Both the position numbers and the translations under genes were made by a program. This document shows, in pieces, positions 33,229 through 40,709 of a stretch of 64,000 nucleotides of DNA. The DNA is from Mucidula mucida (lineage: Eukaryota; Basidiomycota; Agaricomycetes; Agaricales; Physalacriaceae): the NCBI GenBank assembly GCA_015501055.1, contig JADNYV010000020.1, forward strand, positions 1-64,000, written 5' to 3'. A model generated the notes under the pieces. That model worked only from the letters and a program-made list of their open reading frames with translations. It searched no databases and was not told the origin of the DNA. The first letter of the stretch is position 1, and every line of letters starts with the position of its first letter.

Positions 33229-35220
33229 CTACTTGAATCTGCTGTATTTAAAAGGTGGGCTCTCAAATCAATAGTCTATCATACGCACTGAAGTCAAGGC
33301 TGTCGAATGACCGTTTCTCGTAATCGATCAGCGTCCTGACGCTCCGGGAGGTGATGCCCTTATTTGGGATGTCGGAATCTGATCGCGACATCCGGGCCGA
33401 ACCCGGATGCAGTGTATAACGCAGTTACTTGATATCTCTTCATTGTGAACAGACTGTTACTTGTTGCATGGATAGAATATACACAGCCTATGACAAAATC
33501 GAGTCCAGCGTCAGTGGTAATCAGCGATGACTGCTACACCCATATCACGACTCCATGCAGTGCCGTCTTCATCCATGATGTTAATCGTCAGCACGTCCAG
33601 TCCGGTATCACTAGGTGCGATATACGTGGCAAACGCGTTGGTCGCGGATACCGATCCCTTCCCTACGTTAATGGTGAATGTCGGATTGACAAATCCACGA
33701 GCCAGGTCTTCTAGTGATACGCTGATTGTACTGCTGGGAGCTACGAAAACATGAGGCTCCGCCATCCAGTTCAGATATCCGTCCAAAGGAGTCCAACCAG
33801 TTTCACCATCATCGGAACCATCCCACCAGTCTGGCAATCCATCGTTGTCGCTATCGACGTCCCAGGCCGCGCGCACAGCGTTTGGGTAGTTTTCAAGACC
33901 TCCCACATCGGCGGGATCGTCAATAATACCGGCTTTTCCTGTGTAGCTCCCAACGTAAGTCGTCGTATTGGTTATTGTTTCGTTGATGATTCGCTTGTCA
34001 TGGTCATCTAGGACAGGAATATTCGCGCCAACGTCTGACAATACACGCTTGCGGGCCTCCTTCGCCGGCTGAATATCGACACTGTTAGGGAAGAAAGGCT
34101 GGTCGAGGAAGTACTGATACGTCGGAGCAGGATCGATGGTCACCCACGCAAAGCACGGACCGACGCCACTGCTTGTCGTAGAGTTGAACACCTGGGGAGT
34201 GTTCTCGTCAAATACGCCAGGCATAACGTTGCCTGAGCAGTAATATTGTTGGCTTCCCGGAAATGAGTCTTCGTATTGAGCTTTAAAAGAGTAAAAGATC
34301 GCCGTTGCAGCACCCGTCTGATAGTAGTTATTGATGAAATCGGCCTCGCGCGCGCCTCCATCAGTTGCTCGGTCGCCTAGGATGCCTTGAGTAGACCGAA
34401 ATGAACATCTTGTTTCCAACATACCAAAGTTGTATACAACATTGTTGACAATGCTGAGTTGCCCATTGAAATTGGCAGCGTTATCCAGTCCGCCCGCCAT
34501 GCTCCAGGATCTCCCTTCGGCATGAGCGATGAGGTTGTGATGAAAAGTACCGGTATTTCCTCCAATACTCGCCGCGAATCCGTGTTGTGTCCCTTCCGGA
34601 TAATTTTGGTGTCCAGCTGCGTTGAGAGGCTCTGAGATAAGGGTCTGTTGTAGCGTGATGTTATATGCGTCGCGCGAGGAAAAGGATTCATCGATTGTCC
34701 AAGAAATCGAGCAATGATCGAAGATACAGTGATTAGACCCACGCATACCTGCGCAAGATGAATGCTATAATTCTGAGGTCGGTAGAAGCACTCACCCATG
34801 CCGTCAACGGTTTCGTTGCTGAGCTTCCCGGGACGTACGCGCAAATGGCGTATTACAACGTCTGACGTGCCTGATAGACCAACGGGGAACGCCTGGAGAA
34901 CAATGCCTTTTCCCGGGGCCGTTTGACCCGCCACCGTAATGTACTTTTCAGTGATAGTTACTCGAGCTTTCAATGTGATTACGCCTAGAGGGAAAAGCGT
35001 CAATCACACTTTGTTCAGGTACGAAGAAAACATTGTACTGACCGCCCACATCGAAAATCACAGTTCGCGGGCCAGTTAAAGCGCTGACTGCCCAGCGAAA
35101 GCTCCCTTCAATCACATCCTCACTTGATGGATCGTAATCTTTGAGATTAGTGACTTTGGCAACGGCGCCGTTGCGGCCACCTCTTGCATAGCGACCATAA
35201 CCATCTGCACCGGGGAATGC

Positions 35221-35229
35221 TACACCACC
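35221..35229. repeat. Outer element left end: TA duplication plus inverted repeat
   Basis: TA then CACCACC. Pairs with GGTGGTG then TA at 39724-39732. Confidence 0.85.
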
Positions 35230-37046
35230 CTCTTGAGGTGACGTGAGTAGGATGTTCGGAAGATGACATCCGAGCATCTAGCCTTTGATGTCAGCACCCC
35301 ATCAAGACCATGTCGCCAGGATGTTTCCTCATAAATCGCACGTGTCTTCCATTGAGCCTTGTAACTAGAGTATCAGAATTTTGTATACTCGAAACATTGT
35401 TGAATGCATGGGTACTCTATTCTGAAATGACAGTAATTTTATACGGTATCCTGTGAGCCTCCGACCAGGGTACAATCATTTGAAAGCGGGCAGCTGCGCC
35501 GCCTGCGCGTCGCGACTAATTCTTTGCCACTTGTGCTCACGAACACGGAAAACAGATATAAATCACTTGATTAATAGGTATGATAAAATATGTAAACGAA
35601 TGGTGATCTATAGACATTGGGAAGCACAGCGAAATCTAGGACGACGATGACGGCCCAGCCACAGGTGCCGGCGCCGCCGCCACTCGGTTTCCTTGAGCTT
35701 CAGCACTCAGCATGAAGGCATTGATCGATACGGTGGCGGCTGCATCCCCAAAGCGATGGCGATCCTTGGTGAGAGCATGTTGGAAAACCCTGTCGTGGTG
35801 ATCTGTCAGTCTATGGGTTCGGAAGCGGTTGAAAACACGTACTTGGTAATCTTTGCGGCATCCTTCTTTTCCTCTCGGATCTTCACAAGTTTCGCATCGA
35901 TACAATCCCAAAAGTCGGACGGCACCTTTCCATTCATGCTCTCGTCAAGCTTAGCTGCATACAAATACCGCTGAGAACAGTCCGACTCAGCTCATGACAC
36001 ACAGAAGCTCACGAAAGCTCACCAAAAACGCGACGCGCGCAACAAACGGAAGTGTGATAGACACAACAACACCAGTACTGGTGACGGTATCGATGATCTT
36101 CTCAGTGAGCTCGTAAATGCCCCACGAGGGTCCGTCAAACTTCTTTAGAGTGTCGTTAAAGATTCCCATGGATTGTCCGATCTGTGCGAAGGTGTAAGTC
36201 AGAATGCAAGGCGAAGAAGTAAGTCGTACCAAGTCTTTCGTGTCGTTGCGATAATGAATAAACTTTGAGCCAATGTATCTCCCGATAAGCTTGTTAGCAG
36301 CTTTGTCGCGGGAGACACCAGCTGGAATATTTCCATCTGCTGCAAGCTGTGTCTAAGGTTGTGTTAGTTACACAGCCGCTCGGAAAGACGCATCACACCA
36401 TGAGCTTCTTGTTGGGCCATTCTTTATAGGCGGAGAGGTCACTGCTCAGGAAGAGCTCTGCAGCTTTGACATCGATGGCATTCTGAACACAGTAAGATGA
36501 GAACTTCGAAGATGAAACTGCATACCGTGAGCGCAGCAGGCAGGGTATTATCTGCCCATACATCGTCGACGCGCTCTTTCGCCATTAGGGTCTCTAGCTT
36601 GGAGAACAAGGCAAGTCGCTCGAATGCCCATTGCTTGGTGCGACCCGCCTCGGGAACGCTGAGAAGTCGTAACAAGGAGTCGAATTTATCGCACTGGAAG
36701 TATCATGAGCAAAGAACAAATACTCCAAGGATACACTTACATCTTCCCCATCTGACGCTTCCGATTCCGTGACGGATTCATCTGGATTAAGGATGGCGCG
36801 CTGTACGTTGCTCGACTCCGAGGGCTCAGCAAAGGCTTCCGCAAGAAGCTGCGCAAGGCGCTCATTACAAATTGGCACATCGCTGGGGACAGTCTGAAGC
36901 TGTTCAGACTGATGAATAATGGTACGGCTCATCGAGTTCAGACGCACCATAGGCCCCAAAGCAAACAACTCCTGCAAGTGGCAGTTCGTATCCTGAACGT
37001 GTCCAATGAGCGGTTTCAAGGCAGCGGAGACTGCTCGTTCCAAAGG

Positions 37047-37055
37047 TACACCACC
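37047..37055. repeat. Inner element left end: TA duplication plus inverted repeat
   Basis: TA then CACCACC, directly after the outer element's CCAAAGG. Pairs with 39295-39303. Confidence 0.87.
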
Positions 37056-39301
37056 CTCTTGAGGTGACGTGAGTAGGATGTTCGGAAGATGACATCCGAG
37101 CATCTAGCCTTTGATGTCAGCACCCCATCAAGACCATGTCGCCAGGATGTTTCCTCATAAATCGCACGTGTCTTCCATTGAGCCTTGTAACTAGAGTATC
37201 AGAATTTTGTATACTCGAAACATTGTTGAATGCATGGGTACTCTATTCTGAAATGACAGTAATTTTATACGGTATCCTGTGAGCCTCCGACCAGGGTACA
37301 ATCATTTGAAAGCGGGCAGCTGCGCCGCCTGCGCGTCGCGACTAATTCTTTGCCACTTGTGCTCACGAACACGGAAAACAGATATAAATCACTTGATTAA
37401 TAGGTATGATAAAATATGTAAACGAATGGTGATCTATAGACATTGGGAAGCACAGCGAAATCTAGGACGACGATGACGGCCCAGCCACAGGTGCCGGCGC
37501 CGCCGCCACTCGGTTTCCTTGAGCTTCAGCACTCAGCATGAAGGCATTGATCGATACGGTGGCGGCTGCATCCCCAAAGCGATGGCGATCCTTGGTGAGA
37601 GCATGTTGGAAAACCCTGTCGTGGTGATCTGTCAGTCTATGGGTTCGGAAGCGGTTGAAAACACGTACTTGGTAATCTTTGCGGCATCCTTCTTTTCCTC
37701 TCGGATCTTCACAAGTTTCGCATCGATACAATCCCAAAAGTCGGACGGCACCTTTCCATTCATGCTCTCGTCAAGCTTAGCTGCATACAAATACCGCTGA
37801 GAACAGTCCGACTCAGCTCATGACACACAGAAGCTCACGAAAGCTCACCAAAAACGCGACGCGCGCAACAAACGGAAGTGTGATAGACACAACAACACCA
37901 GTACTGGTGACGGTATCGATGATCTTCTCAGTGAGCTCGTAAATGCCCCACGAGGGTCCGTCAAACTTCTTTAGAGTGTCGTTAAAGATTCCCATGGATT
38001 GTCCGATCTGTGCGAAGGTGTAAGTCAGAATGCAAGGCGAAGAAGTAAGTCGTACCAAGTCTTTCGTGTCGTTGCGATAATGAATAAACTTTGAGCCAAT
38101 GTATCTCCCGATAAGCTTGTTAGCAGCTTTGTCGCGGGAGACACCAGCTGGAATATTTCCATCTGCTGCAAGCTGTGTCTAAGGTTGTGTTAGTTACACA
38201 GCCGCTCGGAAAGACGCATCACACCATGAGCTTCTTGTTGGGCCATTCTTTATAGGCGGAGAGGTCACTGCTCAGGAAGAGCTCTGCAGCTTTGACATCG
38301 ATGGCATTCTGAACACAGTAAGATGAGAACTTCGAAGATGAAACTGCATACCGTGAGCGCAGCAGGCAGGGTATTATCTGCCCATACATCGTCGACGCGC
38401 TCTTTCGCCATTAGGGTCTCTAGCTTGGAGAACAAGGCAAGTCGCTCAAATGCCCATTGCTTGGTGCGACCCGCCTCGGGAACGCTGAGAAGTCGTAACA
38501 AGGAGTCGAATTTATCGCACTGGAAGTATCATGAGCAAAGAACAAATACTCCAAGGATACACTTACATCTTCCCCATCTGACGCTTCCGATTCCGTGACG
38601 GATTCATCTGGATTAAGGATGGCGCGCTGTACGTTGCTCGACTCCGAGGGCTCAGCAAAGGCTTCCGCAAGAAGCTGCGCAAGGCGCTCATTACAAATTG
38701 GCACATCGCTGGGGACAGTCTGAAGCTGTTCAGACTGATGAATAATGGTACGGCTCATCGAGTTCAGACGCACCATAGGCCCCAAAGCAAACAACTCCTG
38801 CAAGTGGCAGTTCGTATCCTGAACGTGTCCAATGAGCGGTTTCAAGGCAGCGGAGACTGCTCGTTCCAAAGGTACCACCGCCTCCTCGTGAAGCAGTTGG
38901 CGAAGGAGAGCATTTTCTGGTGAATGAGCGACCGGCGGTTTCTGATCATTGTCATCATACTCGGACTGTGTCCCATACGTGCCCGAGGCCGTCAGTCCAT
39001 CAAGAGAAGAGGCCATGATTGAAAGAGGAAAAGGTGCCGGTGAAGCAAGGTGAAGAGCTAAGAGGCATGCTGATGCCGCAGTATTAAACGCAGAAGTTCA
39101 GCAGGTATGTGTTGACGATATGGAGAGGAACATCGGGACGATGTGACGGTGATGAGTCAGACATACTCGGGGTATACCCGAGCAACATGGCCCCAGAATC
39201 ATCGATTCTATCTAACTACGACAAGATCCCAATACGTTAGTCCTGTCTACTTCTGATATCTCTGGTCAACATCCTCAGAAGCTCCGACCAAATTGGTGGT
39301 G
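37049..39301. mobile_element. Inner, complete copy of the same 2,253-bp element
   Basis: Same termini (CACCACC...GGTGGTG), flanked by TA at 37047-37048 and TA at 39302-39303. The inner copy is uninterrupted: the segment corresponding to the outer copy's insertion point reads straight through near 38,873 (CCAAAGGTACCACCGCC). The left 1.8 kb of the two copies match except for at least one base (G at 36622, A at 38448), and the right 0.4 kb look identical. This implies a recent insertion. It carries one spliced gene on the minus strand. Confidence 0.9.
37462..39016 (-). CDS. Element-borne protein of unknown function (intact copy)
   Basis: Starts MASSLDGLTASGTYGTQSEY at 39016 and ends in a Ser run before TAG at 37462. 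About 420 residues over seven or so exons with normal GT-AG introns, e.g. after TESEASDGED. Recognisable blocks: ALLRQLLHEEAVVPLERAV, NERLAQLLAEAFAEP, CDKFDSLLRLLSVPEAG with RTKQWAFERLALFSKLETL, AAELFLSSDLSAYKEWPNKK, DKAANKLIGRYIGSKFIHY, SWGIYELTEKIIDTVTSTGV, DFWDCIDAKLVKIREEKKDA and FQHALTKDRHRFGDAAATVS. It looks like a helical protein of a mushroom-specific family. I see no DDE/D catalytic pattern, zinc-binding transposase domain, helicase or reverse transcriptase. It may be a captured host gene or a new kind of element protein. Function is unknown. Confidence 0.75.
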
Positions 39302-39303
39302 TA
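39295..39303. repeat. Inner element right end: inverted repeat plus TA duplication
   Basis: GGTGGTG then TA, followed by CCACCGCC, where the outer element resumes. Confidence 0.87.
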
Positions 39304-39723
39304 CCACCGCCTCCTCGTGAAGCAGTTGGCGAAGGAGAGCATTTTCTGGTGAATGAGCGACCGGCGGTTTCTGATCATTGTCATCATACTCGGACTGTGT
39401 CCCATACGTGCCCGAGGCCGTCAGTCCATCAAGAGAAGAGGCCATGATTGAAAGAGGAAAAGGTGCCGGTGAAGCAAGGTGAAGAGCTAAGAGGCATGCT
39501 GATGCCGCAGTATTAAACGCAGAAGTTCAGCAGGTATGTGTTGACGATATGGAGAGGAACATCGGGACGATGTGACGGTGATGAGTCAGACATACTCGGG
39601 GTATACCCGAGCAACATGGCCCCAGAATCATCGATTCTATCTAACTACGACAAGATCCCAATACGTTAGTCCTGTCTACTTCTGATATCTCTGGTCAACA
39701 TCCTCAGAAGCTCCGACCAAATT

Positions 39724-39732
39724 GGTGGTGTA
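39724..39732. repeat. Outer element right end: inverted repeat plus TA duplication
   Basis: GGTGGTG then TA, the inverse complement of the left end at 35221-35229. Confidence 0.85.
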
Positions 39733-40709
39733 GTATACGGGAGCGGAACGACCACACACGGCCTGGAACGATGCTTCCGTCATTGTAAATGGTGTCGACT
39801 CTCCACCAGTAGGTTTCCAGGGAGCTGATATTGCTCAAATCGTAAGACGGATCAGAAAGTGCACCCACGTAGGCATCGGAACTTGTGGTCGCGTTTTCTA
39901 CTGTAGCGGCCGACCTGGTGGATATATAGAGGTTGTAGGAAGTAGAGTTTGTCGCTGTCTTGAAATGAAGAGTAAAAGTCTTGTCATCAGCCGAGACGTG
40001 CTCTTCACCGTTGGGAGGTTCAGGAAACGATGGCTGATCGTTTACATTCGGAGTATCGATTTCTATGGCATTGATATACGCTCGTTTGTCAGTTGAAGCA
40101 GAGTCTCCAGAAGGCGTGAATGTGAAGAATGTCGTATCGGATGCCGATGAGACGTTGAAATTGAGGTAGGTAGAGGCTGCTGTCCAAATATTGTCAGATC
40201 GCACTGTCTGGGGGGAAGACTGGAAAGTATACATGTCATAAGTGAGATCGTGACAAGAGAATGAGAACACTGACGCGAATAACAATTTGATCATTTATGG
40301 CAACGTCGATGGATGAGGTCGAGTTGAGAGCATCCCATGCATTGTGCCAAGCAAGAAGGCTATGAGATCCCTCTTCAAGGCCAGAAACTGAAAGCCGGAG
40401 AGCCACACTAGCATCCTTTTTGTCCGAAGAGAGCCCTGCACCCACAAGGAATTCACCGAGATATCCTGTCACGTGTGCCTGCACAATCTTATTTCTGTTT
40501 CCATTCAAAGCGTCACCCATAGCCTCCAGTCCCAACGACACCTCATCGAATGTCGCGTTAGATGAAACATCGCCATTAGTAACGGGCCAGATTTCATATC
40601 CTTCAACAGAGCGAGCAGTCACCGAAGACGGATTCAGCTGCACCTTCAGGGCAAAGATGGGCGCGACAAGGAACGACGGCCCAAAGACTGACGAGAGGAG
40701 AAGACGCAT

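Follow-up and report, generated by a model that had tools for sequence, protein, structure and literature searches.

A 2,253-bp transposable element of Mucidula mucida (Physalacriaceae, Agaricales) was found inserted into a copy of itself in a 64,000-nucleotide stretch of the genome (here called the window; contig JADNYV010000020.1, positions 1 to 64,000). The inner element (37049–39301) is whole, begins with CACCACC and ends with GGTGGTG; the two parts of the outer element (35223–37048 and 39304–39730) likewise add up to 2,253 bp, and each copy has TA on both sides. The copies lie in the same orientation, so that the segment order is left-left-right-right, and together they form a 4,508-bp composite whose outer ends are intact. 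This arrangement had been proposed from the letters of the window alone (the original prediction), and its lengths, segment order, ends and TA flanks proved correct to the base.

Near-identity of the left parts had also been claimed. Alignment of the two 1,826-bp left parts gave exactly one mismatch, G at 36622 versus A at 38448, and the 427-bp right parts were identical; the copies thus matched as proposed, except that the right-hand comparison starts at 38875 and not at 38876. Two other family members, at C553 and C1004, carry G at this place, and a third, at C230, does not have the place. By inspection, the A is a silent change (TTC/TTT, Phe) in the model of an accessory gene of the element. 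Each of the four 24-bp junctions occurred once within the window.

Copies of the element and their ends

The 59.9-Mb M. mucida assembly was scanned with a 35-base end pattern at no more than one mismatch, a setting that more divergent members would escape. Twelve matches were obtained, comprising ten exact ends, which belong to five elements, and two one-mismatch matches (C83 and C680) whose intervening bases resembled neither element end. The reversed pattern, run as a control over the same assembly, gave no match. The five elements with intact ends were the outer copy, the inner copy, and copies of 2,252 bp (C553), 2,679 bp (C230) and 7,385 bp (C1004), and a DNA search of the genome agreed with this inventory. 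All five insertions had TA on both sides, as expected of a cut-and-paste DNA transposon with terminal inverted repeats (TIRs); by eye, the five target sites shared nothing beyond TA. Because both ends and the flanking TA are also present at C553, C1004 and C230, the structure in the window is beyond chance.

The TIR was short, consisting of 7 bp and an 8-bp match, AGGATGTT, at offset 27–34. An 8-bp run at equal offset was reached in 15 of 20,000 shuffles, and AGGATGTT may be a candidate transposase-binding site. The C553 copy differed from the inner copy in two places: at the base equivalent to 38448, and near element position 2143, where it lacks one base that lies upstream of the gene model. 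The three copies of the 2,253-bp type would have been mobile very recently.

The long copy and its deletion derivatives

The 2,253-bp type shares both ends with the 7,385-bp copy at C1004 and is without its transposase segment, the net difference being 5,132 bp. The extra segment (5,114 bp by BLAST borders) codes for a transposase-like protein on the plus strand. When this segment was used as a genome query (4,985 of 5,114 bp), recurrence was limited to 431 bp in C230; the central exon of the transposase had 24 matches in the genome, C1004 at 100% and the remaining 23 at 26–45% identity. Of the segment specific to C1004, C230 retained the initial 558 bp (at 99.1% identity) before resuming at element position 1459. 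Since this breakpoint lies beyond that of the 2,253-bp type, C230 represents a second, different deletion from the same parent form. Inspection of the joins revealed a 2-bp CA repeat in the 2,253-bp type and almost none in C230.

Two minus-strand accessory genes were predicted in the 7,385-bp form, A (254 aa) and C (342 aa with the introns of the database, 328 aa with our own introns). In the 2,253-bp form the N-terminal part of A was joined in frame to the C-terminal part of C, giving a predicted 407-aa product. The inner copy interrupts exon 1 of the fusion gene of the outer copy (minus-strand position 428, within 286–735), and its own gene is whole. In gene C of C230 a stop followed residue 85 in this reading. 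The N-terminal part of gene A, searched in the genome, gave six matches, all within the same transposon family. A lone stretch at C89:89459–89623, 69% identical to the accessory gene region, is possibly the remnant of an older relative.

A search with the fusion protein (7,997 candidates scored) gave at least three matches, P0151 and, from Hymenopellis radicata, P0152 and P0153. The database model of P0151 chose the fifth intron otherwise than our by-eye model of the fusion gene. P0152 and P0153 both corresponded to the unfused gene C, not to the fusion; for P0153, 298 of 343 columns were identical, and the differing places looked like gene-model choices. At element positions 1120–1121, Lys was encoded in C1004, P0152 and P0153 and Ala in the 2,253-bp type. 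Because the H. radicata proteins are unfused and have Lys as in C1004, the unfused long form is most likely ancestral. The 2,253-bp type is, then, most likely a non-autonomous internal-deletion derivative of the 7,385-bp form, and deletion, not insertion, appears well supported as the direction of change. The in-frame fusion protein might act as a regulator in trans, like truncated P elements, an idea we hold to be improbable; a fusion would be in frame by chance with a probability of 1/3.

The transposase of C1004 matched 30 database proteins, the named ones coming from Agaricomycetes. The best match, P0001 (on a 6,289-bp contig), shared 259 of 260 residues with C1004 where the two overlap. 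The in-frame stops examined in C1004 fell, by eye, in short GT...AG-bordered stretches that are plausible introns, and no clear disabling change was seen; C1004 is possibly a candidate autonomous copy. No Pfam transposase was matched by eight pieces of C1004 (E up to 1) or by six homologues (E up to 10), one chance-level zinc-finger match (E 3.8) being noted. A profile search of PDB sequences also found no transposase and gave three chance-level matches.

Transposases of the CMCT clade (CACTA/EnSpm-Mirage-Chapaev-Transib and kin) are described as having D, D, C(2)C, H(3-4)H and E in this order (PMC12730594). By inspection, the C1004 protein contained WSDDVSGN, DNPQQSE, CRRD, LHVLTH and EVFECFN in succession, and on our residue assignment these would follow the CMCT order, except that the second Cys of C(2)C is Asp. 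An alignment was made of 29 of the 30 database matches (P0028, with a foreign domain, was omitted). Among the 21 proteins covering the C(2)C site, 12 read CxxD (including P0001, close to the M. mucida element), seven read CxxC and two read neither. Asp at this site is common to a group of proteins and is therefore not a defect of the C1004 copy.

Two assignments to known groups were not supported. For Plavaka (Pfam PF18759), none of the 122 genome matches listed fell in C1004:5984–13368, although the model could miss a divergent Plavaka. For Tc1/mariner, the TA duplication fits, yet none of the eight pieces and six homologues matched a Pfam transposase, a search that a very divergent one could escape. 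The TA duplication also agrees with the description of ESTA, EnSpm-like elements with TA duplications.

A further family, whose transposase is related, was noticed at C2, C105, C241, C210, C234, C75, C672 and C188, at least eight copies in all. Its protein was 34–36% identical to the C1004 transposase in most copies and 45% in one short match, and the copies were about 95–98% alike in DNA over the compared parts. When its termini were sought (C2, C105, others), the two ends could not both be located in the two 7-kb stretches inspected. One copy (C105:85500–92500, positions about 1228–1475) carried an insert of about 240 bp with 27-bp inverted ends (88.9% alike), which was lacking in a sister copy and is probably a small nested miniature inverted-repeat transposable element (MITE).

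The interrupted gene and the origin of the nested pair

The open reading frames (ORFs) on either side of the outer copy aligned with a single protein of Venturia nashicola, P0034: the match of the upstream ORF ends at residue 163, and that of the downstream part begins at residue 162. Because the two matches adjoin on P0034, the outer copy interrupts a single gene, and this gene resembles family-1 polysaccharide lyases: its closest named homologues were annotated as "pectin lyase fold" or as "family 1 polysaccharide lyase". A search of the assembly for an empty-site allele, with the right flank (2,270 bp) as the sole query, gave one match, the window itself. A 411-aa ORF found in the window has an identical database counterpart, P0031, listed with a longest contig of 15,746 bp, so that a second assembly probably holds this gene. 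Coordinates of the features are collected in Table 1.

Table 1. Features of the nested pair and of the gene around it (window positions)
Feature	Position	Strand	Basis
Lyase-like host gene, downstream part	33511–35220	-	P0032; match to P0034 from residue 162; no Pfam match
Outer-left TA target duplication	35221–35222		direct sequence reading
Outer element, left 1,826 bp; its final TA is the entry site of the inner copy	35223–37048	+	direct sequence reading
Outer left end, subterminal AGGATGTT, offset 27–34	35249–35256	+	end scan and shuffle test
Outer G (inner counterpart A at 38448)	36622	+	A private to inner copy, n = 4 copies covering the site
Inner-left TA target duplication	37047–37048		direct sequence reading
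Inner element, whole, 2,253 bp, CACCACC...GGTGGTG	37049–39301	+	sequence reading and genome end scan
Inner left end, subterminal AGGATGTT, offset 27–34	37075–37082	+	end scan and shuffle test
Fusion accessory gene, inner copy; 7 exons, 407 aa, GT-AG introns	37462–39016	-	model made by eye
Fusion gene, inner copy, exons 1–4	38567–39016, 38352–38519, 38225–38308, 38056–38178	-	model made by eye
Fusion gene, inner copy, exons 5–7	37891–38007, 37669–37796, 37462–37615	-	model made by eye
Inner right end, subterminal AGGATGTT, offset 27–34	39268–39275	-	end scan and shuffle test
Inner-right TA target duplication	39302–39303		direct sequence reading
Outer element, right 427 bp	39304–39730	+	direct sequence reading
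Outer right end, subterminal AGGATGTT, offset 27–34	39697–39704	-	end scan and shuffle test
Outer-right TA target duplication	39731–39732		direct sequence reading
Lyase-like host gene, upstream part	39733–40709	-	ORFs; match to P0034 residues 12–163; no Pfam match

Read outward, the left end of the element encodes MLGCHLPNILLTSPQEGG, followed by a Val at the junction (coding spans 35223–35277 and 37049–37103, minus strand), and two database proteins, P0151 and P0032 (named "pectin lyase fold/virulence factor"), start with these residues. To judge from these N-termini, the two proteins, apparently from the contig of the window, are gene-model chimeras across the left junctions: P0032 runs from the element into the host gene, and P0151 starts in the inner copy and continues into the outer one. 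The case illustrates how transposon ends get into public protein annotation.

The following course of events is proposed. A 7,385-bp, possibly autonomous member would move by cut-and-paste with TA target duplications. Loss of an internal part (net 5,132 bp), the transposase gene included, would have left a 2,253-bp form in which both ends persist and the accessory genes are fused. The 7,385-bp copy, or a lost relative, would have mobilised this short form in trans. One short copy would have entered the lyase-like gene, and a second copy would then have entered the first at an internal TA in the same orientation, perhaps in a local or sister-chromatid event, producing the left-left-right-right order. 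We regard it as very probable overall that a cut-and-paste family gave rise to a deletion derivative which inserted twice in succession at TA sites in the lyase-like gene. The original prediction, in which one element inserted twice in succession at TA sites, stands in that it explains every junction; what it took as the unit is itself probably a derivative, and the sequence shows that the outer copy preceded the inner one, though not necessarily at this locus.

The outer element is older than the inner insertion, but that event could have taken place elsewhere, the composite being moved whole. Self-insertion at another site, after which the 4,508-bp composite transposed intact into the host gene, is the alternative that survives best, though we think it unlikely. 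With intact outer ends such a unit should be mobile; just one composite was present in the assembly, all ten exact ends being assigned to the five elements, but this argues weakly against a move, as cut-and-paste would leave no second copy behind.

A reversed history, in which the 2,253-bp form was the original and a 5.1-kb element entered it to give C1004, seems quite improbable. The complete open 407-aa gene model of the short form and the CA on both sides of the extra segment would suit it. By inspection, however, the extra segment was without inverted ends, and it carries the sole close transposase match of the genome; moreover, C230 keeps part of the segment with another breakpoint, and H. 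radicata has the unfused gene with Lys.

Slightly less credit still is given to an assembly artefact, in which a single copy was misjoined into a double. Misassembly often arises from nearly identical copies (one difference in 2,253), and there are 1,047 contigs in the assembly. Repeat misassembly would be expected to give left-right-left-right or a collapse, not left-left-right-right with TA duplications; in addition, the inner junctions occurred once each in the window, few bases were shared with the alternative join by inspection, and the copies are told apart by one base. A tandem duplication or unequal crossing-over in place of the second insertion would fit the direct orientation of the two copies but would yield left-right-left-right without accounting for the TA duplication around the inner copy; the segment order refutes it, and its probability is negligible.

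Several points count against two successive insertions of a deletion derivative into a lyase gene. The evidence for nesting comes from one assembly (59.9 Mb, 1,047 contigs) of one strain. The lyase label rests on the names of homologues, because Pfam, at E 0.001, gave no match for the four host-gene ORFs (or for three element ORFs). The activity of the C1004 transposase is presumptive, and its gene model was made by eye. The long and short forms could in principle be linked by a 5.1-kb insertion with CA at the join, though C230 and H. radicata argue against this. Finally, the family totals 16,823 bp, or 0.028% of the assembly, so that four later insertions into uniform targets would give a self-insertion chance of about 0.1%, a figure that is no test of target bias since the window was picked for oddness. 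Such a low uniform chance would favour a possible target preference, or else a local move or one between sister chromatids.

Relatives in Hymenopellis and known systems

P0152 of H. radicata and the gene C protein of C1004 were identical at 340 of 342 residues, and at both differing residues the C230 copy of M. mucida matched H. radicata. C1004 and C230 differed at 8 of 1,884 bases. As C230 has the H. radicata residues, the distance between the genera is no larger than that within the M. mucida genome. P0152 and P0153 each have a longest contig of 14,782 bp, about the length of two full elements, perhaps a tandem or nested pair.

O. mucida CBS 558.79 is reported to have an average nucleotide identity of about 85% to the other strains compared, including two of H. 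radicata, and O. raphanipes and M. mucida to be about 33.1 million years apart (PMC9961838). The same source describes misnamed strains in the group and two H. radicata strains sharing just 85.8%, and another source groups O. radicata IJFM A160 with M. mucida on the same branch (PMC12929423). A genome identity of about 85% argues against near-conspecific hosts and so raises the odds of transfer. On balance, horizontal transfer or introgression between the hosts is slightly favoured, from a protein comparison in which the strain identities of the window and of P0152 are taken as named; its main rival is contamination of a small contig or mislabelling behind the H. radicata match. We give even odds to a scenario in which the family crossed recently between Hymenopellis and Mucidula and, within M. 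mucida, now multiplies mainly in its form without transposase, with its own copies among the targets.

A targeted literature search found no published description of the family, although it may be described elsewhere, and the family is apparently unnamed. As in a double Ds, one copy lies within another of the same element. The classical chromosome-breaking double Ds is inverted, whereas the M. mucida pair has a single orientation.

Self-insertion itself has precedents. In maize, Ds-del elements are internal deletions of Ac, and Ds-l4 is nested in Ds-l3; an internal-deletion derivative, a copy within a copy and a transposase-coding partner in the genome are common to Ac/Ds and the M. mucida family, which differs in having TA and not 8-bp duplications (PMC3260210). 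As that study puts it where it treats nesting, nested Ds are rare, probably through gaining chromosome-breaking properties, and no double Ds was found in B73 (PMC3260210). For the P element of Drosophila, too, insertion into a copy already in place is described, although it belongs to another superfamily and the case described was an engineered P construct (PMC4744444). Autointegration of Sleeping Beauty and piggyBac indicates that eukaryotic transposons need not spare their own DNA as a target; being intramolecular, it gives deletion or inversion circles, not a complete extra nested copy (PMC3952818). With nested self-insertion already known for Ac/Ds and P elements, the nesting in M. mucida is ordinary.

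The fungal EnSpm, Plavaka and ESTA elements of the CMCT group resemble the family in their CA..TG ends, in the D/D/E order and H(3)H (on our own reading) and in having extra genes beside the transposase, and ESTA also in its 2-bp TA duplication (PMC12730594). Plavaka is present in Agaricales, with ends given as TGT..ACA for PlavakaA and CATCA..TGATG for PlavakaB, as against CACCACC here (PMC12730594). The family further differs from CMCT in reading C(2)D for C(2)C and in matching no Plavaka Pfam model.

If the ends of the nested pair paired freely, products of 2,253, 2,682, 4,079 and 4,508 bp would be possible, and recombination between direct repeats would be expected to yield 2,682 or 4,079 bp. 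No element of either of the latter lengths was among the five found, the 2,679-bp C230 differing in structure. The family has one candidate autonomous copy, deletion derivatives of two independent kinds and a nested pair, and represents a small, complete natural two-component system in a mushroom; its near-identity in another genus, if confirmed as transfer, would offer a datable recent case among wood-decay mushrooms.

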